Source: Myxococcota bacterium
Lineage (GTDB): Bacteria > Myxococcota_C > UBA6777
Assembly (NCBI GenBank): GCA_023150835.1
Contig: JAKLKB010000049.1
Coordinates: 1 to 42,945, forward strand
DNA: 42,945 bases
Direction of reading: 5' to 3'
The number at the start of each line of letters is the position of its first letter. Within the stretch, counting starts at the first letter, position 1. The notes under the pieces were generated by a model. That model ran no database searches and had not been told where the DNA came from. It was given only the letters and a program-made list of their open reading frames with translations. Of the stretch, positions 3,510 through 42,137 are shown piece by piece. The translations under genes and the position numbers were made by a program.

Positions 3510-6500
3510 ATGGAAGAGATGCAGTCCTACGAACAGCTTTCAAAGACCCCCACGCAAGCCAACCGTATGCGCGAGATCTTTGGGCTGATCGCGCTAACAT
3601 TTGGCGCATTATTGTTTCTGAGCTTACTCACCTACCACCCCGAAGATCCGTGTTGGAATCTCGCAGGACACGGCGTCACACGCAACGCCGCTGGCCCTGT
3701 CGGCGCTTACGTTTCGGATATCTTTTTGCAGATGTTTGGTATCGGCGCGTATTTTATCGTTTTTTTGGCCTTTTTGTGTGCCTTGATGATGATCTTGCAG
3801 CGGCGAATCGCCTTTCGCTGGATCTCACTGGTGGGTTACGCTTGCATCGGCCTGTTGATATCGTCGTTTTTTCATCTGTGGTGGGGACATTGGGGTCCAC
3901 ATGGCTACTCGACGGGCGGCGCAGCAGGACAATGGCTTGCGACGTTGTTGGTCAGCCAGACGGGACGAGGCGGAAGCTACTTGCTTTTGACCATGATGCT
4001 CGCTCTTTCGGTCGTATGGACAACGCAGTTCTCGTTTGTGGAGACGGGTTCGCGGATCGCCGAACGGATGTCTCCGCATACAAGGCGATGGGCGCTTGGT
4101 TTTCACGAAAGGTTTTTGGATTGGCGTGACGCTTGGTATCGTTGGCGCTCTGCCAAACACGCCAACCAACGAAGAGAACGTAAGCCCGTATTTGCCGCAG
4201 CAGGTGGCGATCTGCCTGCATTGGAACTCGACCACTCTTGGCTAGATGCCGACCCTTCTTGGGCCACAAGCGATCTTGCCGCTCGTGACCGCGAAAAAGT
4301 CCTCCCCGAACTCACCCCCCCCGCTGGTGTAGACGCCTATCGCGCCGAGATATCCGCCGTCAAGATCAGTCATCCTGACTGGTCCTCTCAGGCTGCGGGT
4401 TCACCTGCCCTCGATCAAGAAAGCCCCACCAACGAAGGCACTCTCCGCCGCTTTGCCTCCACAAGCGAAAGCCCCGAAGCCACCGAGCATATCCCTCATA
4501 TCGCTATCTCGCAGCTTTCTCGTGGAAAAAGTCTTCCACAACTTAACCTCGGAACACTCGCACTGTCTGTTCCCTCCGAACGTATGGACGCCATCCTGCG
4601 CGGCTTACAAGACCACACCAATGCAGACGATCCGCCCTACGCTCTCCCTCACAACGCCCACCAAGACCACAACGCTCACCATGACTACAACTTCTATCAC
4701 GACCACCACGCCGACCGCGTCGATCGACGCACACAACCTCCCCCAAGCCACGACAAGCGGATCACCTCTCTCGAAGATCTCATCCCCATCTCTCACGCCG
4801 ACATCGAAAGCGAAGCTGATCTATCCGATGAATCCGACGAGATCCACACTCTTGATGTCGACGACCCCCGCCACCAACAAGCCCTCGCTTGGTCAAACCT
4901 CGAACCATCCCTCCCTACCAACACCTTGATCGAACAAGCCCACCCCACATCCAACGAGCAAACCTGCACCGACTGGCCCCATCGACCACTCCACGAAGAC
5001 GACCCAGAAACCACACTTCTCCACGAACCCACCCATCCGCACCCCACTTGGAACGGCACGATCCCCACGCTTGAACAACCCACAACGAACTTTTCTCTCT
5101 CTGCCCCCCAAGCGACACAACACACCATCCAAGCGACACAACACACCATCCAAGCCCCACAACCCATCGATCCTTTCGGCCTGCTGGAAGCTCAAATAAT
5201 CCTCCCTGCCGCTGCGAACGAAGCACAGCGGCCCTTCGGTACTTTGGAATCCCACCACCTCCCCTCCATCGAAAACGCCGCTCCGCTCGAAATACCCACC
5301 GCGATATCTCCCATCAGACCGATGACGATCGATCCAAGACATCAAGCCTTTTATGCCCACTCTCAAGCCTACAGCGCGGTTCCCGCCCCTCAAGCTGCGA
5401 TGACCGCTGACTTGTCTCTCGCTCCTCAATTCGAGAGTGCTGCGAATTTTTCCCGCATCCCTCAAGCGGCGATGACCGCTGACTTTTCCCCGACTTTCGA
5501 TAGAACGAGCGTACTTACTCCCTCCGTCCCCCCTCAAACCGAGACGACAGATAACGTTTCTTCTGCCGCTCTCACAGAGAGTACTTCTGACTTTTCTCCT
5601 ACGCCTCAAGCTGAACGTACCGCTGATTTTTCTCCTGCCGCTCTCACAGAGAGTACTTCTGACTTTTCTCCTGCGCCTCAAGCTGAGCGTACCGCAGACT
5701 TGACTCCTCACTCGTTTGCTTCTTCGTCTTCTTTTGCGGATGCTCCGACGCCCTCCAAACCACCCGCCTCACAAACAGCCGAATTTTCGGCCAAAGAAGT
5801 GCTTTCCCCAGACTTGGCCCAAACCAGCCAGACACCCTCCAGCCGACCCTTTGTGTTGCAACGTCAGAAACACCCGTCGCTTTCGCCGATCACGAACACC
5901 CAGACACCCTCCAGCCAACCCTCTGCGTTGCCTCCATCCACCATCCCAATCGCCCGCTCCACCGAGTCCTTGGTGAAGAAACCCACCCCATCCTTATTTG
6001 AAGAAGACGAGGATGAGATCGAAGACAGCCAAGAAGCTTATCTTTCGGAGGATTCCGAAGACATGGAAAACAGCCTCGATCTCCACCACGCAGAGAACGC
6101 AGAAAGCGTAGAAGAGAATCAAGAGGTCGATCTTTCCGATGGCTTCGATGACATGGAAGATAGCCTCGAAACGGACATCCCGAAGCGCCCTGAGTCGATC
6201 GGGCTCGCGCCCTCCTCCGCCCCGAAGGACGGACGTCCGATCGAGAATGCACCGAAACATCCTGAACCGAGGGTGATCACGCCTGTGCGTTCGGGCCTGA
6301 CGATTCTTCCCGCGCTGCGTGCAGACGCACCGTCATTTGACCCAAGTCACGGCAAATACAACATCGCCGAAGAGGCCGATGCTTCGGAGCATGATCGCGG
6401 TGCAGCCGAAGAGGCGAAAGTTTCGGCGCATACTCGTCCTGCTACACAAAGCCCCACGACTTCGATACACAACCGATTTGCGACCGAAGATGCCGAGGCT

Positions 6501-8564
6501 TCGGTGTATGATCGGGCTGCTGCGCAAGTCGCCGCTGCTGAAAAAGCCAACGCTCTCGAAAAAGCAGAGCAATTGTCGCTACAGCAGATGTTGCCTTCGT
6601 TGCCCAAAGCCCTCGACTATCCGATGGAAGAAGAAGCTCCGAAACTCCGAGGTGTTGCGCAAAGCGAACAAGCTATCGCTGCTGCCCCGATGCTCCGAGG
6701 GATCGCACAAAGTGAACAAGCCATCGCTGCTGTCCCAATGCTCCGAGGGATCGCACAAAGCGAACAAGCTATCGCTGCTGCCCCGATGCTCCGAGGGATC
6801 GCACAAAGTGAGCCGCCCATCGCTGCCGCCCAAGAGTCCGCCGCGATGCTCCGAGGCATGGCGCAAAACGAACAACCGCCCGGGATCGCCCAAGCCACCG
6901 CAGCGATGAATGGGCCGCTTGTTCAAGCCAAAGCGCGTGCGAAAAGCGGTGATGAGCTTCAACAGCAAACCAAACCTGCTTGGCGCTTGCATGGCTACCA
7001 ACATCCCTCGCTCGATCTGCTCGATTACGTCGAGCAAACGCCCGATGAAGATGACGATCTGCTGCCAGAGATCCTTGTCGAAAACGCCCGTGTACTGGAA
7101 AAAACCCTTGAGACTTTTGGGATCAAAGGCGAAGTGCAACAGATCCTGCCCGGACCTGTGATCACCATGTACGAATACCTCCCTGCCCCCGGGATCAAAG
7201 TCAGTCGCATCGCAAGCCTCGCCGACAACCTCGCGATGTCCCTCGCCGCCGTCCAAGTGCGCGTGCTTGCCCCCATCCCGGGCAAAAACTGCGTTGGCAT
7301 CGAGCTTCCCAATCGAAAACGTGAAGTCGTTTACATCAAAGAACTACTCGCAGACGAACGTTTCCAAAAGACCCAAGCCAAACTCCCCATGGCGATGGGC
7401 AAAGACACCACAGGAACCCCCTACATCGCAAACCTCGCCAAGATGCCTCACTTGTTGATCGCAGGAACCACGGGAAGCGGAAAAAGCGTCGGTGTCAACA
7501 GCATGATCGTCTCGTTGCTGTACCACGCTTCGCCCGAAGACGTGCGCTTTATCATGATCGACCCCAAGATGCTCGAACTCTCGATCTATGACGGGATCCC
7601 GCACTTGCTTTTGCCCGTCGTGACGGATGCGAAAAAAGCTGCAACCGCCCTTGCATGGGCCGTCAACGAGATGGAACGCCGTTACTCTCTGATGGCCGAG
7701 GCAGGTGTACGCAATATCAACAACTACAACGCACTCGTCGAGCAACGCAAAAAAGCCCGCGAATTTATCGAGCAACGCGAAGCAAGACTTGATGCCGCCC
7801 GTCGTGAAGCGTTGCGCGAGGACGATATCGCCGAAGAACCCGCCGAGATGGACTGGGAAAGCTCCACAGAGTACTCTCCTGATGAACTCTACCAAAGCAA
7901 CGCCCCCAAAAGTTATTACGAAAAAATGCCTTACATCGTCGTGATCATCGACGAACTGGCGGACTTGATGATGGTTGCGGCCAAAGAAGTGGAATTCAGC
8001 ATCGCACGCCTCGCACAGATGGCCCGTGCTGCGGGGATCCACTTGATGCTCGCCACACAACGCCCTTCCGTGGACGTTCTTACGGGCGTGATCAAAGCCA
8101 ACTTCCCAAGCCGCTGCGCTTTCCAACTCAAAAGCAAGATCGACTCTCGCACCATCCTTGATCAGCCCGGTGCCGAGCGGCTTCTCGGCCAAGGTGATAT
8201 GCTTCTTACTCCACCAAGCAGCAGCGCTCCCGTCCGTATCCACGGATGCTACGTCTCCGAAGAAGAAGTTCACCGCGTCGTCAACCATCTCAAAAAACAA
8301 GGAGACCCCGAATACAACGCCGAGATCCTCCCAAGCAGCGAAGGCCAAGAAGAAGGCGAAGAGTTCTCAGATGATATGTACGACAAAGCCATTGAGATCG
8401 TCGTAAAAACTCGCAATGCCTCGATATCCGCGCTCCAACGCAAGCTCCGCATCGGCTACAACCGCGCTGCCCGCATGATCGAACAAATGGCCCGTGAAGG
8501 CATCGTCGGCGAACAGATCGGCAGCAAACCCCGCGAGATCCTCGCTCCTGAAGGTGAATCTTGA
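3510..8564 (+). CDS. ftsK: DNA translocase FtsK with giant repeat-rich linker
   Basis: A 1684-residue septal DNA pump that moves chromosome ends toward dif and activates XerCD. Four membrane segments lie within about residues 20-170. A low-complexity Pro/Ser/Thr/Ala/Glu linker runs from about 215 to 1130. The motor follows: an alpha domain from about 1140, Walker A GTTGSGKS at 1319-1326, Walker B IVVIIDELADLMM after a charged insert rich in Arg and Glu, and the TQRPSVDVLTG motif. The winged-helix gamma domain (about 1620-1684) should read KOPS sites. Most FtsK proteins have 750-1350 residues, so the excess is linker. The linker holds a 24-residue duplication (5568-5711) and 16-residue units (6645-6836). 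An aaggag site precedes the ATG at 3510. The gene stands alone. Confidence 0.97.
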   Translation: MEEMQSYEQLSKTPTQANRMREIFGLIALTFGALLFLSLLTYHPEDPCWNLAGHGVTRNAAGPVGAYVSDIFLQMFGIGAYFIVFLAFLCALMMILQRRIAFRWISLVGYACIGLLISSFFHLWWGHWGPHGYSTGGAAGQWLATLLVSQTGRGGSYLLLTMMLALSVVWTTQFSFVETGSRIAERMSPHTRRWALGFHERFLDWRDAWYRWRSAKHANQRRERKPVFAAAGGDLPALELDHSWLDADPSWATSDLAARDREKVLPELTPPAGVDAYRAEISAVKISHPDWSSQAAGSPALDQESPTNEGTLRRFASTSESPEATEHIPHIAISQLSRGKSLPQLNLGTLALSVPSERMDAILRGLQDHTNADDPPYALPHNAHQDHNAHHDYNFYHDHHADRVDRRTQPPPSHDKRITSLEDLIPISHADIESEADLSDESDEIHTLDVDDPRHQQALAWSNLEPSLPTNTLIEQAHPTSNEQTCTDWPHRPLHEDDPETTLLHEPTHPHPTWNGTIPTLEQPTTNFSLSAPQATQHTIQATQHTIQAPQPIDPFGLLEAQIILPAAANEAQRPFGTLESHHLPSIENAAPLEIPTAISPIRPMTIDPRHQAFYAHSQAYSAVPAPQAAMTADLSLAPQFESAANFSRIPQAAMTADFSPTFDRTSVLTPSVPPQTETTDNVSSAALTESTSDFSPTPQAERTADFSPAALTESTSDFSPAPQAERTADLTPHSFASSSSFADAPTPSKPPASQTAEFSAKEVLSPDLAQTSQTPSSRPFVLQRQKHPSLSPITNTQTPSSQPSALPPSTIPIARSTESLVKKPTPSLFEEDEDEIEDSQEAYLSEDSEDMENSLDLHHAENAESVEENQEVDLSDGFDDMEDSLETDIPKRPESIGLAPSSAPKDGRPIENAPKHPEPRVITPVRSGLTILPALRADAPSFDPSHGKYNIAEEADASEHDRGAAEEAKVSAHTRPATQSPTTSIHNRFATEDAEASVYDRAAAQVAAAEKANALEKAEQLSLQQMLPSLPKALDYPMEEEAPKLRGVAQSEQAIAAAPMLRGIAQSEQAIAAVPMLRGIAQSEQAIAAAPMLRGIAQSEPPIAAAQESAAMLRGMAQNEQPPGIAQATAAMNGPLVQAKARAKSGDELQQQTKPAWRLHGYQHPSLDLLDYVEQTPDEDDDLLPEILVENARVLEKTLETFGIKGEVQQILPGPVITMYEYLPAPGIKVSRIASLADNLAMSLAAVQVRVLAPIPGKNCVGIELPNRKREVVYIKELLADERFQKTQAKLPMAMGKDTTGTPYIANLAKMPHLLIAGTTGSGKSVGVNSMIVSLLYHASPEDVRFIMIDPKMLELSIYDGIPHLLLPVVTDAKKAATALAWAVNEMERRYSLMAEAGVRNINNYNALVEQRKKAREFIEQREARLDAARREALREDDIAEEPAEMDWESSTEYSPDELYQSNAPKSYYEKMPYIVVIIDELADLMMVAAKEVEFSIARLAQMARAAGIHLMLATQRPSVDVLTGVIKANFPSRCAFQLKSKIDSRTILDQPGAERLLGQGDMLLTPPSSSAPVRIHGCYVSEEEVHRVVNHLKKQGDPEYNAEILPSSEGQEEGEEFSDDMYDKAIEIVVKTRNASISALQRKLRIGYNRAARMIEQMAREGIVGEQIGSKPREILAPEGES
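5568..5711 (+). repeat. 72-bp tandem duplication inside ftsK linker
   Basis: Two copies begin at 5568 and 5640 and encode a 24-residue unit starting ALTESTSDFSP. The DNA copies are nearly identical, including synonymous positions, so the duplication is recent. Shorter relatives of the unit (DFSP, TADFSP) occur just upstream from about 5400. Confidence 0.85.
6645..6836 (+). repeat. 48-bp tandem repeat inside ftsK linker
   Basis: Four in-frame units (6645, 6693, 6741, 6789) encode LRGxAQSExxIAA, residues about 1046-1109, and a degenerate fifth copy follows. The first three units differ by only a few bases. This is the last part of the linker before the alpha domain. Confidence 0.9.
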
Positions 8565-8775: not shown

Positions 8776-10563
8776 ATGCAATGGAAGAAAGCCATCCATC
8801 TCTTGTACGTTCCAACCATGTTTTGCAATATGAGCTGCAAATACTGTTATCTTGGGGATTTGACCGAAGAGCGCGTCGATACCGAAAAAGTTAAAGAGAC
8901 GCTGCATCGGACCCTAGAGCAATTGTTAAGCAAAGGCTACCTGCCCTTCAATCTGTCTTTTCATGGCGGCGAAGTGACCACGTTGCCCACAGCAACGTTG
9001 GATGCGCTGTTTCGGATAGCAGCACAACATTACGCTACATACGAACAAGACATCCGCGCCATGGGATATCCCGTCCATCCGCTACACATCAAAACAAATC
9101 TACTCAATCTTGAGAAACACTATGATGTGCTCCAGCAACACGGCGTGTCGATCAGCGGCAGCGTCGACTTGCCACTCAGCTTACACGAGCGATTTCGGCG
9201 AGATAAACGCGACCAGAGCACCCTAGACCGTATCCGCAACAACCTCAAGCTGTTGGCGCGCTACCCTCACAACAAAAAGATATCTTGCGTCGTCACAGCA
9301 GCACACCTGCAACATCTCGACGAGTTCATCGCTGATTTGAAGATGTTGCATGACGATATCGGCCTCGATATGAGCCGATTTAACGTGATGTTCGGCTTTG
9401 ACTCCAAGCAAAACAACGACAAATTCGTCGAACGTACCGCAGGCACAGAGATGTTGTCCGACAGTCAACAACTGGCCTTCTACCGCAAAGTCAAAGCCGC
9501 CGTCGTAGGAACACCGCTGTACAACGCCTTTAAGATGGACTGGTTTAAGGAGTTCACACCAGAGTACTGCTGTTCTGCCCCCAACTGCGGCAACAAGTTC
9601 TTTTTGCTGCAAGCCAACGGCGATGTGTATTCGTGCCCTCGCGGGCAATCCTCACCGAATTACCGCTACGGCAATATTTATCAAGACGATATCGAAGCGA
9701 TTATTGCGCGAGGTTGGCAGGTGATCGAACGCAACGAAAACAGCTTAGAGATCGATGACAAGTGCCTACGTTGTGCGTACCTGCCTTATTGCAATGTGGG
9801 ATGCACCTTTGTCCGTCAAGAAGTCGGTCTCTCCAAGAGCTACACCTGCGCGCTACAGCTTGAGATATACCGCGACAACCCTGATCGCTATCGCCCCCTG
9901 CGCACCGAAGAGATCGAAGCATACAGCCGCCGCTTGCTTCTCCGAAACAATATCAAACGGCTCCAAACACCGCACCCCAAAAAGCAATCCTTTGTGACCA
10001 ACGAGTTGTTTCAAGAAGAAAATTCCCTCGCAAGCCTGATCCGCCGAGACGAAACGCTCCAACATCTCTACGCCGATGATCTGTTTTTTCTGCGGATCGG
10101 AGGTATCCAATACCCTCTGCGCTCAGCGATTTTGAAAAATGAGCGCGACATCGAGATCCTGACTCCCCGAAAAGAAGTCGTCTTGGGGATGCGAGAAGAT
10201 CTGTTTCACCTCGCTTGCGACGATGCTGTGACGAATTTCCTGATGTTGATGCTTTTGCGCGATACGACCGTGATCTACGGCGATGAGCAGCGGCGCAAAC
10301 AGGAACACGTCTTTGAACACACCATCTACTCCAACACAGTACTCGCTTCGGCGCAGCGCGAAGATCATTATGTGCTACTCGATATCGCCCCGATCCTCGG
10401 CCTCCATCGCCACGCTTATCTCGAAGGCGTGACGAACAATCTCTTTTTTACAACACGCACCTTGCGTGAATATCATTACGCAAAACACAAAAAGAATGCT
10501 TTTTACCACCTACAGGCCATCAACTTGCCTTTCCAGAATATCGAATTTGTTTGGCAACCCTAA
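8776..10563 (+). CDS. Radical SAM/SPASM peptide maturase
   Basis: A 595-residue radical SAM enzyme. Cys17, Cys21 and Cys24 (CxxxCxxC, ending CKYCY) should hold the SAM-cleaving 4Fe-4S cluster; FHGGE follows near residue 60. A SPASM-type auxiliary-cluster region spans about 264-360, with Cys in YCCSAPNC, YSCPRG, CLRC, YCNVGC and SYTC. Such domains occur in anaerobic sulfatase maturases and RiPP-modifying enzymes. Residues about 375-595 form a C-terminal extension that I do not recognise. An aaaggaggg site precedes the ATG. The next gene starts 12 bp downstream and encodes a small protein with an Asn/Gly tail, so its substrate is inferred to be that protein. A sulfatase maturase role is less likely, as no sulfatase is nearby. 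The reaction (crosslink, epimerisation or other) is unknown. Confidence 0.88.
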   Translation: MQWKKAIHLLYVPTMFCNMSCKYCYLGDLTEERVDTEKVKETLHRTLEQLLSKGYLPFNLSFHGGEVTTLPTATLDALFRIAAQHYATYEQDIRAMGYPVHPLHIKTNLLNLEKHYDVLQQHGVSISGSVDLPLSLHERFRRDKRDQSTLDRIRNNLKLLARYPHNKKISCVVTAAHLQHLDEFIADLKMLHDDIGLDMSRFNVMFGFDSKQNNDKFVERTAGTEMLSDSQQLAFYRKVKAAVVGTPLYNAFKMDWFKEFTPEYCCSAPNCGNKFFLLQANGDVYSCPRGQSSPNYRYGNIYQDDIEAIIARGWQVIERNENSLEIDDKCLRCAYLPYCNVGCTFVRQEVGLSKSYTCALQLEIYRDNPDRYRPLRTEEIEAYSRRLLLRNNIKRLQTPHPKKQSFVTNELFQEENSLASLIRRDETLQHLYADDLFFLRIGGIQYPLRSAILKNERDIEILTPRKEVVLGMREDLFHLACDDAVTNFLMLMLLRDTTVIYGDEQRRKQEHVFEHTIYSNTVLASAQREDHYVLLDIAPILGLHRHAYLEGVTNNLFFTTRTLREYHYAKHKKNAFYHLQAINLPFQNIEFVWQP

Positions 10564-10575
10564 CGGAGGCTTACG

Positions 10576-11004
10576 ATGCAACAACGCTCCCGCCCCCAAA
10601 CCCAACCTGCGGATGCTCTTCAAGAGAAGTTGGGACTCTTTCTGCATCAGGCGAAAATTGATCAAGATGCAGATTTGAGCGACCAAATTCTCAGGCATCT
10701 TATGGCAAACAACCGCAACTATGTCTTGTTTCGCCACTCCTTGCTGTATTTCTTTAGCGGCGAAGAGATCAGAAACATCGAACAGACCTACGATCAATAC
10801 AAAGATCCAAACTACTGGCGTTTTGATGGAAAAAAAGTGACGAAGATCGATCCTGAATATTATTTAGGACCGACGCAATCTCGCGGATTTTGGGAGACCG
10901 AGAGCCAACAAACGGGGTGGTATGGAGCCGCCGATATCGAATACAGCAACAATAACAACAACAATAACAACAACAACGGCAACAACAACGGCAACAACGG
11001 TTAA
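10576..11004 (+). CDS. Putative RiPP precursor with Asn/Gly C-terminal tail
   Basis: A 142-residue soluble protein I do not recognise. Residues 1-90 are helical-looking and charged (leader-like). A middle part is rich in aromatics (NYWRFDG, GFWETES, GWYGAADIEYS). The end is S-N10-G-N3-G-N2-G. Asn codons are mixed (AAC and AAT), so the run is not a plain trinucleotide slip. It follows the radical SAM gene by 12 bp with a ggagg site and precedes the GIDE-type gene by 5 bp. A leader followed by a low-complexity tail beside a radical SAM/SPASM enzyme is the pattern of RiPP precursors, so the tail or the aromatic stretch before it is the likely modified core. There is no Cys and no classical Gly-Gly leader-cleavage site. 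It could instead be a structural partner of the enzyme. Confidence 0.75.
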   Translation: MQQRSRPQTQPADALQEKLGLFLHQAKIDQDADLSDQILRHLMANNRNYVLFRHSLLYFFSGEEIRNIEQTYDQYKDPNYWRFDGKKVTKIDPEYYLGPTQSRGFWETESQQTGWYGAADIEYSNNNNNNNNNNGNNNGNNG

Positions 11005-11009
11005 CTATC

Positions 11010-11732
11010 ATGACTCTTTCCATCAGAATCCTCGTGATGATCGTGCTGTCTTTTATTCTGTTGCATATCTGGATGAAGTCTCGTAAATTACGCAAAGAGA
11101 TCCGTCGTCTGCAAGAGTTGCCCCCCTTTGCAACCGATCTGCTCGACTGTTATGTTCATTTTCAGGGATACATCGCCACCCCAAACCAACACACCACCCC
11201 GATCTATCAAAAAGCTTGCGCCTTTTACATGAGCAGAATTCAGGCGAAGTGGGAAACCAAGGTCAAAAAGCCGGGCAAAGGCATGCAAACCAACACCAAG
11301 ACGCTCCACAACGAAAGCTCGCCGTCGAGCGTCATCGAACTGAGGGACGCTCAGGGACAAGAGGTTTCTGTCGATCTCAAAGAATTTGCCCCCCCGCTGC
11401 GCACCAAATCCGAGATGATGGATGTTTGTCCCGCGATTTGTGCAGAGAAAGTCGACCCCAAATACAAAAAGTACGATGTTTCGGAAAGGTGGTGCGCTCA
11501 TCAAGACAAGGTCAGCGTCTACGGCAAATTGATCCGAGACGACCAAGGGCAGTTGTGGTTAAAGCACACGGGCTACGAAAGTTATCCCGCGCTCTTTTTG
11601 ATCAGCGGACAGCAAGGACAACATCCCAAAAACCAGATATCGCTCCGACAAAAAGAAATGCCCGGAAGGTTTGGGTTTGTTTTGGTCGGTCTGATACTGT
11701 TCCTCTGTGCTGCTTCTTTCTTTATAGAGTAA
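11010..11732 (+). CDS. Two-TM membrane protein with GIDE/BAM-like domain
   Basis: A 240-residue protein with an N-terminal membrane helix (about 5-25), a domain of about 170 residues and a C-terminal helix (about 216-237). The domain has the layout of the GIDE (beside-a-membrane) fold known from eukaryotic MUL1 and some bacterial proteins: an opening strand ending in FQGYI, a segment with CAFYMSRIQAKWE, a buried region and a final strand VSVYGKLI. The RING finger of MUL1 is absent. The start is only 5 bp behind the Asn-tail gene and has no clear Shine-Dalgarno, suggesting coupled translation. Its place as third gene suggests a membrane partner for handling, export or anchoring of the modified product. 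The GIDE assignment is by eye and moderate; the membrane topology is clear. Confidence 0.7.
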   Translation: MTLSIRILVMIVLSFILLHIWMKSRKLRKEIRRLQELPPFATDLLDCYVHFQGYIATPNQHTTPIYQKACAFYMSRIQAKWETKVKKPGKGMQTNTKTLHNESSPSSVIELRDAQGQEVSVDLKEFAPPLRTKSEMMDVCPAICAEKVDPKYKKYDVSERWCAHQDKVSVYGKLIRDDQGQLWLKHTGYESYPALFLISGQQGQHPKNQISLRQKEMPGRFGFVLVGLILFLCAASFFIE

Positions 11733-14190: not shown

Positions 14191-14250
14191 CAAAGTGACA
14201 GCCCCCACAAGCGCTCAAATCCGATAGGACTTAGGCATTTGGGCTGATGT

Positions 14251-14390
14251 TGTGGGGTGTGACGCCATGCCCCGCCATAGACTGTCGCCCCTTTCGGGGT
14301 CAAGGGGCGAACAGGTCACGGTTTTTCAAAACAACGGCGCTGTCGCTTGAGCGTTCGCGAACATGGCTTTTTTTGGCAACTGCGCAACTC
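14251..14390 (+). repeat. Family B dispersed repeat
   Basis: It opens with tgtggggtgt, contains cggggtcaaggggcgaac and ends with a T run followed by ggcaactgcg. The same order of blocks recurs near 36208, 38214 and 41877 and, inverted, near 26786 and 38779. It is non-coding and lies between the three-TM gene and a family A copy. Confidence 0.8.
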
Positions 14391-14411
14391 CGATCCGATC
14401 TGAGCCAGATC

Positions 14412-14624
14412 ATACGAAATCCGAACGATGTGTACACAAAGGAGAGTACGTAGACGCCCTATGATTGGGCAGACACAGGGGTCTGCCCCTACATCTTTAC
14501 GATCACATAACACGATACCCGAGCGATCTGAGATCGTACGAGAGTGCGTAGACGCCCTATGATTGGGCAGACACAGGGGTCTGCCCCTACATCCTTACGA
14601 TCATACAACGGGCGGATTTCGTAT
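14412..14624 (+). repeat. Family A repeat, two hairpin units between one pair of ends
   Basis: The left terminal repeat atacgaaatccg (14412-14423) is the exact reverse complement of the right one, cggatttcgtat (14613-14624). Between them lie two hairpins with identical stems, gggcagac with gtctgccc, at 14467-14488 and 14565-14586. The right end overlaps the stop codon of the NUDIX-GNAT gene. The internal spacing suggests one unit nested in or fused to another. Confidence 0.88.
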
Positions 14625-19895: not shown

Positions 19896-19978
19896 AGAGT
19901 CCACGGAAAGCACGAACGACGACCAACGGGAGTCTCACGCTTCGTAAAGCACGGAAAGAGGGCAGGAAAAGAAGAGTA

Positions 19979-20093
19979 ATACGAGATCCGCCCGTTGTAT
20001 GATCGTAAAGAGGTAGGGGCAGACAGGTGTGGCTGCCCAAGAATCGGGCGTCTACGCACTCTCCTTTGTGTACACATCGTTCGGATTTCGTAT
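19979..20093 (-). repeat. Family A repeat, cluster unit 1
   Basis: Ends are atacgagatccg (19979-19990) and cggatttcgtat (20082-20093). Outer stem gggcag (20017-20022) with ctgccc (20033-20038). The orientation is opposite to the copies at 1830 and 14412. Confidence 0.85.
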
Positions 20094-20094
20094 G

Positions 20095-20217
20095 ATACGA
20101 AATCCGCCCCTTGTGTGATCGTAAAACGTAGGGGCAGACAGGTGTGGCTGCCCAAGAATAGGGCGGTTCGCGAACCGCCCCTACATCATGCGATCATACA
20201 TTACGCGGAGATCGTAT
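20095..20217 (-). repeat. Family A repeat, cluster unit 2 with extra palindrome
   Basis: It begins one base after unit 1 with atacgaaatccg (20095-20106) and ends cggagatcgtat (20206-20217). Besides the outer stem gggcag/ctgccc (20132-20153) it carries a perfect 20-bp palindrome, GGGCGGTTCGCGAACCGCCC, at 20161-20180, which is also found at 36103-36122. Confidence 0.85.
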
Positions 20218-20277
20218 AAATACGAGTTGACAGAGAGTCCATGACAGACAACCGAAGGAAGTCTCGCTCTTCGTGTG

Positions 20278-20393
20278 ATACGAGATCCGCCCGTTGTGTG
20301 ATCGTAAGGATGTAGGGGCAGACCCCTGTGTCTGCCCGATCATAGGGCGTCTACGTACTCTCCTTTGCTGTGTACATCACTCGGATATCGTGT
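20278..20393 (-). repeat. Family A repeat, cluster unit 3
   Basis: Ends are atacgagatccg (20278-20289) and an imperfect cggatatcgtgt (20382-20393). The central stem is gggcagac (20316-20323) with gtctgccc (20330-20337). A short block ending ctcgcgcttcg or similar recurs beside the units near 19930, 20255 and 20400, so the flanks were amplified too. Confidence 0.82.
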
Positions 20394-26765: not shown

Positions 26766-26785
26766 CCCATCTCTTCAGGCGGATA

Positions 26786-26923
26786 GGAGTGACCTGTGGA
26801 CAACAACCCCCGTGTTCGCGCCCGTTCAAGCGACAGAGCCGTTCGTGGAAAAACATCTGCTCTGTTCGCCGATACGGGGTCAAGGGGCGACAGTCCCTTG
26901 TGGGGCGTGGGGCAAAGCCCCAC
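26786..26923 (-). repeat. Family B dispersed repeat (inverted)
   Basis: Reads, on the plus strand, cccccgtgttcgcgcc, then gttcaagcgacagagccg, then gatacggggtcaaggggcga and gggcgtggggc. This is the reverse complement order of the copies at 14251 and 36208. It lies between the aminotransferase gene and hisF. Confidence 0.78.
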
Positions 26924-26975
26924 CACTCTGTCCAAATGCTTCACTCTTAAGACAAAACGACCTACCAAAACAGCA

Positions 26976-36052: not shown

Positions 36053-36196
36053 CTACATAGAACTTACGCAGTTCGATACGAAAAAGGCCAATGTTCGGGC
36101 GCGGGCGGTTCGCGAACCGCCCCTACAACGTTCTGATATCTCAGGGTTTCCCTTTTCAACTGCGTCACTCCTATCTACATAGAACTTACGCAGTTC
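36053..36196. repeat. 22-bp direct repeats flanking a family A type palindrome
   Basis: A 22-bp sequence (ctacatagaacttacg and on) is present identically at 36053-36074 and 36175-36196. Between them lies the perfect palindrome GGGCGGTTCGCGAACCGCCC (36103-36122) followed by cctac. The inner right flank aactgcgtcact is partly inverted relative to the direct repeat. The pattern resembles an insertion flanked by duplicated target or element ends. Confidence 0.75.
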
Positions 36197-36200
36197 AATG

Positions 36201-36347
36201 ATTTTTATGGGGTTTCACCCCACACCCCACAAGGGAGATGGCTCCCTTGACCCCGTATCGGCGAAGAGACCGATGGTTTTCCAGACGGACAACTCTGTCG
36301 CTTCAAGCAACGCGAACACGGGTTTTTTTGGCAACTGCGTAAGCCCT
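36201..36347 (+). repeat. Family B dispersed repeat
   Basis: Blocks in order: atggggtttcaccccacaccccacaa (first part), cttgaccccgtatcgg, cgcttcaagcaacgcgaaca, T run and ggcaactgcgtaag. Same order as at 14251 and 38214. It lies between the YkgJ-type gene and a HAD hydrolase gene, immediately behind the second 22-bp direct repeat. Confidence 0.8.
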
Positions 36348-38213: not shown

Positions 38214-38352
38214 TGGTTTTGTGGGGTGTCACCCCACACCCCACAAGGGAGCTTAGCCCCCTTGACCCCGTGAGGATACAGATCACAGGGTCTTCAAACC
38301 AGCAGATCTGTCGCTTGAACTTCCGTGAACACGGGAGTTTTCCAACAAGTAG
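38214..38352 (+). repeat. Family B dispersed repeat
   Basis: Opening ttttgtggggtgtcacccca, then cttgaccccgtgaggat, then gtcgcttgaacttccgtgaa and a short T run with ccaacaagt. It lies behind prolyl aminopeptidase and contains a possible small hairpin (gtggggtgtcaccccac). Confidence 0.8.
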
Positions 38353-38378
38353 CACTTCATTGACTCGGTAGCAACGAT

Positions 38379-38756
38379 ATGCCTTCAACAAGACGCGATA
38401 CCCTCACCTTTTCCCTCGCCTCCGCCCTCTTCGGACTTACGCTGCTCTGCAACTCTCCTCTCGCCTCTCCACCCAAACTCTCCAAACCCGCAACCTCTCG
38501 GCCTCTTTCCCCAACCTCTCACCCCACGCCCAAATCCACGCCCAAATCCACGCCCAAACCCACCCCCAAACCCACCCCCAAACCCACCCCCAAACCCGCT
38601 GCCGATTGCATCACAGGCAAAACCACCTCCCCCAACCAACCCCCCGAAGATTGCGACGATCCCGTCATCTTCCCCGAAGAGCCACCTACCTCCAAACCCA
38701 CCTCCAAACCCACGCCCAAACCCACGCCCAAACCCACGCCCAAACCCACCCCATAA
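38379..38756 (+). CDS. Secreted Pro/Thr/Lys-repeat protein
   Basis: A 125-residue protein with a signal-like N-terminus (basic start, hydrophobic 11-27, SPLAS). The rest is low-complexity: two blocks of the unit PTPK or STPK (about 48-70 and 105-125) around a short segment with two Cys (ADCITGK and EDCDDPV). This could be an exported cell-wall or outer-surface linker. No enzyme domain. The DNA is a run of cccacncccaaa units, so the length may vary by slippage. The Shine-Dalgarno is weak, and expression is not certain. Confidence 0.5.
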   Translation: MPSTRRDTLTFSLASALFGLTLLCNSPLASPPKLSKPATSRPLSPTSHPTPKSTPKSTPKPTPKPTPKPTPKPAADCITGKTTSPNQPPEDCDDPVIFPEEPPTSKPTSKPTPKPTPKPTPKPTP

Positions 38757-38778
38757 CTTCGGCGCGATCTCTTCACAA

Positions 38779-38905
38779 ACCCCCGTGTTCGCGCCTGTTC
38801 AAGCGGCGCAGCCGTTGGTTTGAAACACGCTTGTTCGCTCCGCCGACACGGGGTCAAGGGGACGCAGTTCCCTTGTGGGGCGTGGGGTGACACCCCAAAA
38901 CATTG
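38779..38905 (-). repeat. Family B dispersed repeat (inverted)
   Basis: Plus strand reads cccccgtgttcgcgcc, gttcaagcggcgcagccg, ggtttgaaac, cacggggtcaagggg and gggcgtggggtgacacccc. It is oriented opposite to the copy at 38214, so the two flank the Pro/Thr/Lys gene as a large inverted repeat. Confidence 0.8.
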
Positions 38906-38916
38906 CTCCGACACTC

Positions 38917-39031
38917 ATACGATATCCGAGCGACGTACACACAAAGGAGAGCACGTAGACGCCCGATTGTTGGGCAGCCACACCTGTCTGCCCCTACATC
39001 TTTGCAATAACGCAGCGGGCGGATTTCGTAC
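38917..39031 (+). repeat. Family A dispersed repeat
   Basis: Ends atacgatatccg (38917-38928) and cggatttcgtac (39020-39031). Outer stem gggcag (38972-38977) with ctgccc (38988-38993). It lies directly behind a family B copy. Confidence 0.82.
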
Positions 39032-41776: not shown

Positions 41777-42015
41777 TTTTTGTGGGGTTCCACCCTGCAT
41801 CTTTTTGTGGGGTTCCACCCTGCATCTTTTTGTGGGGTTCCACCCTGCATCTTTTTGTGGGGTTCCACCCTGCATCTTTTTGTGGGGTTCCACCCCAAAC
41901 CCCGCAAGGGACTCTCGCCCCTTGACCCCGTGTTGGCGGGGTGAACAAGCGTGTTTCAAACAAATAACACAGCCGCTTGAAGTGCTGCGAACACGGCTTT
42001 TTTTGGCAACTACGT
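41777..42015 (+). repeat. Family B repeat with 25-bp tandem expansion of its left end
   Basis: Five 25-bp units start at 41777, 41802, 41827, 41852 and 41877. The unit is T5, then gtggggttccac, then cctgcatc; the first four are identical and the fifth runs into the rest of family B (ccccaaaccccgcaaggg, cttgaccccgtg, cgcttgaagtg, T run, ggcaactacg). The unit itself is the opening of family B, so the array grew from its left end. Confidence 0.88.
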
Positions 42016-42137
42016 AACTCAAAAGACTTTTTCGCGTGGAATACTTACACGCCGAAGGGCAGGAGGTTTCAGGAGAACATCGCTTTGAATGGTTCGCGGG
42101 ATGCGAAAGCAAAAGGCTTTTCCATCAAAGAACATCT
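42016..42137. other. Non-coding gap before retropepsin-like gene
   Basis: I see no gene and no terminator. The base composition becomes AT-richer here. Confidence 0.3.

Follow-up and report, generated by a model that had tools for sequence, protein, structure and literature searches.

A cassette of three closely spaced genes lies on the forward strand of a 42,945-nucleotide stretch of DNA from a Myxococcota bacterium (contig JAKLKB010000049.1, termed here the window). The first gene (8776..10563) encodes a radical SAM/SPASM enzyme of 595 amino acids, characterized by Pfam and NCBIfam domains, a 26-row family alignment and an AlphaFold2 model. The second (10576..11004) encodes a 142-amino-acid protein that is the probable substrate; it has been modelled, and same-tailed homologues are found in all Gram-negative loci described below. 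The third (11010..11732) encodes a 240-amino-acid membrane protein with a BAM/GIDE-like domain between two transmembrane segments, as judged from hydropathy and profile alignment; it is kept in 14 loci. The tight spacing that had been noted in a sequence-only reading is exact, with gaps of 12 bp between enzyme and small protein and 5 bp between small protein and membrane protein, and all three open reading frames are on the forward strand. The enzyme gene is preceded by a good ribosome-binding site, aaaggaggg. Scans of the cassette for sigma-70 promoters and terminators gave a signal about equal to that of shuffled sequences.

Upstream of the cassette is an FtsK-like gene (3510-8564). Its product is an FtsK/SpoIIIE-like protein of 1684 amino acids with a very long low-complexity linker that carries the tandem repeats MLRGIAQSEQAIAAAP and FSPTPQAERTAD. 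The window also contains dispersed repeats of about 100-300 bp (14223-14601, 19976-20367, 26783-26946, 36054-36347, 38214-39008 and 41877-42017). These are of two types, CGTAGACGCCC..GGGCAGACA..TCTGCCCCTAC and CCCTTGACCCCGT..TTTTTTTGGCAACTGCGTAA, and are common in the contig of a sister species as well.

The sister species, of the same genus (public record KLAP109, Myxococcota), has the trio in the same order behind an FtsK-like gene. Identities to the window proteins are 94 % for the enzyme, about 80 % for the small protein and 88 % for the membrane protein, with dN/dS ratios (Nei-Gojobori) of about 0.09, 0.41 and 0.17, respectively. As the trio and its order are kept with these ratios, the three open reading frames are real genes under purifying selection. 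Three further genomes from the family of these two species lack the whole trio, and thus the cassette comes and goes.

In Pfam and NCBIfam, only the radical SAM core (Radical_SAM, 38.9 bits against a cut-off of 29.5) and the SPASM domain (TIGR04085, 44.9 bits against 27) exceed the cut-off for the window enzyme. The CxxxCxxC motif of the radical SAM cluster (C17, C21 and C24; 8824..8847, forward strand) is present in 25 of the 25 alignment rows that reach it. The SPASM region (9568..9849, forward strand) carries cysteines for two auxiliary clusters, C265, C271, C287, C330, C333, C339, C343 and C358, and these eight are found in 26/26 rows. All 11 cysteines of the three clusters are thus invariant in the family alignment, as are R289 and Q291. 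Beyond the SPASM region is a C-terminal extension (residues about 380-595; 9916..10560, forward strand), a domain of about 200 residues conserved across the family with the motifs YGDE.R.K.H and TT..REYHY.K..KNAFYH..INLPF. The extension had been called unrecognized from the sequence, and this proved correct: no Pfam or NCBIfam domain covers it, and it defines the enzyme family.

The AlphaFold2 model of the enzyme (pLDDT 86) superimposes residues 5-373 on the anaerobic sulfatase maturase anSMEcpe with a Z score of 27.9 (334 residues, 3.3 A); the next best folds for the core are ChlB, CteB and SuiB. In whole-chain searches, none of the listed matches covers the residues after 380, be it a solved radical SAM structure or an RRE leader-binding domain. 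No NCBIfam family claims the enzyme, which falls below the cut-off for every maturase family listed. Its best family matches there are peptide maturases, namely DynA (95 bits against a cut-off of 450), the anaerobic sulfatase maturases and the cyclophane formers. A viperin-like match in PADLOC (26 bits, residues 14-189) was rejected, as it covers only the common radical SAM core. One named grouping is phrog_1802 (radical SAM domain-containing phage protein), which spans the length of the enzyme including the C-terminal domain, with E-values of 2.2e-50 for the window enzyme and 6.4e-142 for a Campylobacter phage enzyme. Phrog_1802 is a sequence cluster for which no function or substrate is described.

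Relatives of the enzyme are found in distant lineages. By tblastn, a protein with 33 % identity across 98 % of its length was detected in phage CAM-P21, the sole full-length relative in the phage collections searched, and in a Campylobacter prophage that is part of a plasmid record. When the window enzyme was the only query, viral contigs yielded no close relative; an alignment of two lineages, the window enzyme and the Campylobacter phage relative, was needed as search profile. This profile matched proteins of Thiotrichales, Desulfogranum japonicum, Thiotrichaceae, an epsilonproteobacterial MAG, an unclassified bacterium and Methylococcales, and also of Corynebacterium, Campylobacter phages and one IMG/VR phage; genome searches added further members. 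Some enzymes from different phyla are about 62 % identical, a sequence similarity that suggests horizontal transfer. In the tree, the phage enzymes do not form one clade: that of L102 pairs with Corynebacterium and that of phage L047 falls next to the clade of Gram-negative cells, each on a long branch. Exchange of the enzyme between phages and cells is likely. Enzyme genes broken by a frameshift or stops are found in L066/L101 (Campylobacter phage), L067/L080 (C. jejuni 414) and the Corynebacterium locus L035 (C. suicordis).

The small protein of the window ends in SNNNNNNNNNNGNNNGNNG. Its asparagine tail, S-N10-GNNNGNNG (10945..11001, forward strand), reads SN10GNNNGNNG and holds 15 asparagines, in accord with the tract of 10 asparagines originally described; the tail is a feature shared with the Corynebacterium and phage partners. 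In the sister species the tail is identical at the protein level and differs by one codon. Asparagine tails are encoded by mixed AAC and AAT codons, and the tract is therefore kept at the protein level. The sequence-only reading had proposed a search for the three genes in other genomes, and this found the trio together in distant Gram-negative lineages of several phyla, in 14 of 14 cellular loci (only loci with uncut surroundings are counted; the window and the sister species are included). The outcome that the reading had named as its refutation, a lack of co-occurrence, thus did not arise. In each of the 14 the small-protein homologue adjoins the enzyme gene or sits one gene away. In some Desulfogranum relatives the small-protein gene comes first, followed by those for the membrane protein and the enzyme; elsewhere the enzyme gene leads, followed by those for the small protein and the membrane protein. 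Tails in the Gram-negative loci have the form [STA]N8-28 with interspersed glycines and a final glycine.

In the model, residues 11-91 of the small protein form a helix-helix-beta domain with two helices and five strands, and the tail is disordered. No solved fold clearly resembles it (the best hits reach Z 4.0 and, by Foldseek, E 0.44), and a hydrophobic transmembrane-like segment is lacking. Searches of Pfam, NCBIfam, PHROGs and PADLOC assigned no family to the small protein or the membrane protein. A role as ubiquitin-like carrier with its C-terminal glycine, an idea that stems from the E3-ligase name of GIDE, found no support in the model.

The membrane protein is hydrophobic at both ends, with hydropathy maxima over residues 1-25 and 216-240. 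It had been described as GIDE-type; a remote relation holds, yet detection by Pfam does not. The Pfam GIDE family (PF12483) gave no match in the membrane protein (P0003), in its 11 relatives or in the genome. As a scan of 258 genomes of the Desulfogranum order also yielded no GIDE above the cut-off, a comparison profile was built from three GIDE-domain proteins (L104, L147 and L148). Alignment of a profile of 12 membrane-protein relatives with these by hhalign gave an E-value of 1.5e-6 and a probability of 90 % over 134 columns. By these profiles and by its layout, the membrane protein is a remote relative of BAM/GIDE proteins. Like MAPL/MUL1 and the prokaryotic relatives, it has a domain between two transmembrane segments, but it lies below Pfam detection, has no RING domain and is encoded in a three-gene cassette with a radical SAM enzyme. 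The function of the BAM/GIDE domain itself is unsettled (PMC4457424).

The pairing of the enzyme with an asparagine-tailed protein extends beyond the Gram-negatives, to Corynebacterium and to phages. The enzyme is present in 6 of 201 Corynebacterium genomes. The same 201 genomes were searched for a DNA pattern of eight asparagine codons, a glycine codon and a stop, with the reversed pattern as control. The pattern gave six matches, one per genome, in exactly the six enzyme-bearing genomes, and the control gave none; the chance of such a 6/6 overlap is about 1e-11 if the kinship of the species is ignored. All six genes adjoin the enzyme gene. They encode proteins of 62-98 amino acids that have only the tail in common with the small protein of the window. 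A membrane protein is encoded just upstream in 6/6 loci and is weakly DUF3592-like, below the cut-off. In these loci (L033, L035 and L083-L086) the DUF3592-like type replaces the BAM/GIDE-like membrane protein, and the enzymes are related.

In phages, the partner is a tail fibre and the cassette membrane protein is absent. Campylobacter Mu-like phage contigs, 28 in number, were collected by a conserved fibre N-terminus, blind to the presence of the enzyme; seven carry it, 19 do not and two are cut. The fibre ends in NNNNY or GNNF in 7/7 enzyme-bearing phages and in 0/19 enzyme-less sister phages with the same fibre N-terminus (p = 1.5e-6, a value that overstates independence since the contigs are closely related). 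Gene order in the seven is fibre, a 210-amino-acid gene and then the enzyme. The enzyme-less phages have other fibre ends, for example SKSIVSFMELR or LLNLNRGHV, and a different next gene of about 168 amino acids. As fibre end, 210-amino-acid gene and enzyme vary together, they are exchanged as one module, and this is a stronger argument than the p value. In L119-L140, the fibre C-terminus and a following gene of 165-170 amino acids (MKYFIDKN...) form an alternative module that replaces the radical SAM module.

Other phage fibres encoded next to the enzyme end in SSNNNNY (another fibre type), CNNNNN and NGNNNNNGNNNTK. The fibre beside the broken enzyme gene in L066/L101 ends in MGNNS, with no terminal aromatic residue. 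In phage L047 (IMGVR_UViG_3300010935_000101), whose enzyme (6761-8001) is 42 % identical, the genes neighbouring the enzyme encode no asparagine tract; upstream of it is a gene for a 200-amino-acid protein, preceded by one for a cysteine-rich protein of 172 amino acids. Among phages that infect Campylobacter, the virulent CP220 and CPt10 carry many radical SAM genes, which have been read as metabolic genes (PMC2853527).

As the C-terminal asparagine tract is the sole common feature of the three kinds of partner, it is the probable substrate, and we infer that the tail is modified by the enzyme. The genes, their conservation, the intact cluster sites and the close pairing of enzyme and asparagine tail are established. 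The reading that we favour is that of a protein-modification cassette, in which the enzyme alters the asparagine tract at the C-terminus of a protein encoded by a neighbouring gene; its probability is put at roughly three in four. The enzyme would recognize the tract, probably via its own C-terminal domain, and would abstract hydrogen atoms from asparagine; the beta carbon, the site used by anSME and the cyclophane maturases, is the most likely position. Attack at this carbon is suggested by the core fold and the nearest families, those of anSME, DynA and the cyclophane formers. Enzymes of the DynA type act on the Cbeta of residues that include asparagine. The outcome in the tail would be an oxidative change or a cross-link. 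In phages this partner would be a tail fibre. In Gram-negatives and Corynebacterium it would be a small protein of the cytosol whose modified tail is retained and which acts together with a beta-domain protein anchored in the membrane, of the BAM/GIDE-like type or, in Corynebacterium, of the DUF3592-like type. In this scheme, where the enzyme attacks, what it produces and what happens at the membrane are guesses. The sequence-only proposal of a new peptide-modification system is thus supported, but its placement at the membrane is less sure, since the phage branch has no membrane protein. Phage L047, whose enzyme has no asparagine tract in its vicinity, speaks against the favoured reading. The motifs of phages are short, as in GNNF, and most of them finish with an aromatic residue, whereas the cell tails are long (N8-N28...G), so that a single reaction common to all branches is uncertain, and the terminal aromatic residue of most phage fibres may entail a different outcome there. 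The wider proposal, of one radical SAM family that modifies C-terminal asparagine tracts both at phage fibre ends and on a cell protein working with a BAM/GIDE-type membrane protein, is considered probable, with less assurance than the cassette reading.

Among other readings, the main logical rival is that the tail is a recognition tag only, to which the enzyme docks while its chemistry falls on a different residue of the partner, or on a third molecule. In its favour, aromatic residues precede the tail (WYG..EYS in the window) or follow it (NNNNY, GNNF). The partner domains are, however, unrelated between Gram-negatives, Corynebacterium and phages, with asparagine the sole residue shared by all, and a mere docking role is unlikely. 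The main chemical rival, epimerization, is slightly less probable again: a radical SAM epimerase would convert tail asparagines to D-Asn, and the alternating tract could form a membrane-inserting beta-helix of the polytheonamide kind. Polytheonamide-type peptides are Asn-rich and epimerized, and in cells the long tracts are encoded beside a membrane protein; but short phage motifs such as GNNF could not form a helix, the best folds and families (anSME, cyclophane formers) perform beta-carbon chemistry, and the epimerase EpeE scores much lower in the structural comparison (Z 15 against 28).

A SPASM maturase beside a small protein with a low-complexity C-terminus had been taken as the pattern of RiPP systems. 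That juxtaposition stands, and a classic pathway in which the Asn-rich C-terminus is a core peptide, cleaved and exported as, for example, a toxin or signal, could be built on it. Against this, the cassette has no protease, transporter or signal peptide, and in the loci read no genes for leader cleavage or export recur within about 1.5-3 kb, although such genes may lie elsewhere in the genome. The phage partner, moreover, is a structural tail fibre. With these parts missing from the cassette, it looks unlike a source of an exported RiPP natural product and more like one whose product retains the modified tail, and the RiPP pathway is judged improbable. The maturases of dynobactin, darobactin and cyclophanes (DynA, DarE, GrrM/OscB, AmcB, YhhB and XyeB) are the best NCBIfam matches, but the enzyme is far below their cut-offs and its cassette lacks an exporter; the precursors of all these maturases require an aromatic residue for the cross-link, whereas the cell asparagine tracts contain none. 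By far the least probable reading is an anaerobic sulfatase maturase, or a housekeeping radical SAM enzyme, that happens to lie beside an unrelated low-complexity protein. The core does resemble anSME in sequence and fold, with a radical SAM cluster and two auxiliary clusters, and action on a protein side chain is a likeness that we propose for the cassette enzyme. Yet the score for the anaerobic sulfatase maturase family (TIGR03942) is 93.7 bits against a cut-off of 349.45, no sulfatase is encoded adjacently and the C-terminal domain is extra. Alignment to 4k37 places an aspartate after the auxiliary-cluster cysteine of anSME, which we take to be the catalytic base; the residue after C287 is proline in 14/26 and histidine in 12/26 rows, with R289 and Q291 invariant instead. 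As the aspartate is replaced in every row, the enzyme is not a sulfatase maturase, and that reading was rejected on residues and score. The perfect pairing with asparagine tails in Corynebacterium likewise argues against that reading.

Searches of open-licence PMC papers found no radical SAM enzyme described in association with Asn-rich tails, tail fibres or receptor-binding proteins. The cassette presents a radical SAM family with a predicted substrate of its own, the C-terminal asparagine tract, distributed over several bacterial phyla and tailed phages. It also provides a genetic context for a membrane domain of the BAM/GIDE-like kind, whose ancestral function is unsettled. If the asparagine tail is indeed modified, this would represent a new asparagine-directed post-translational chemistry, and if the same holds on phage fibres, the end of the fibre would depend on a radical enzyme encoded by the phage itself.
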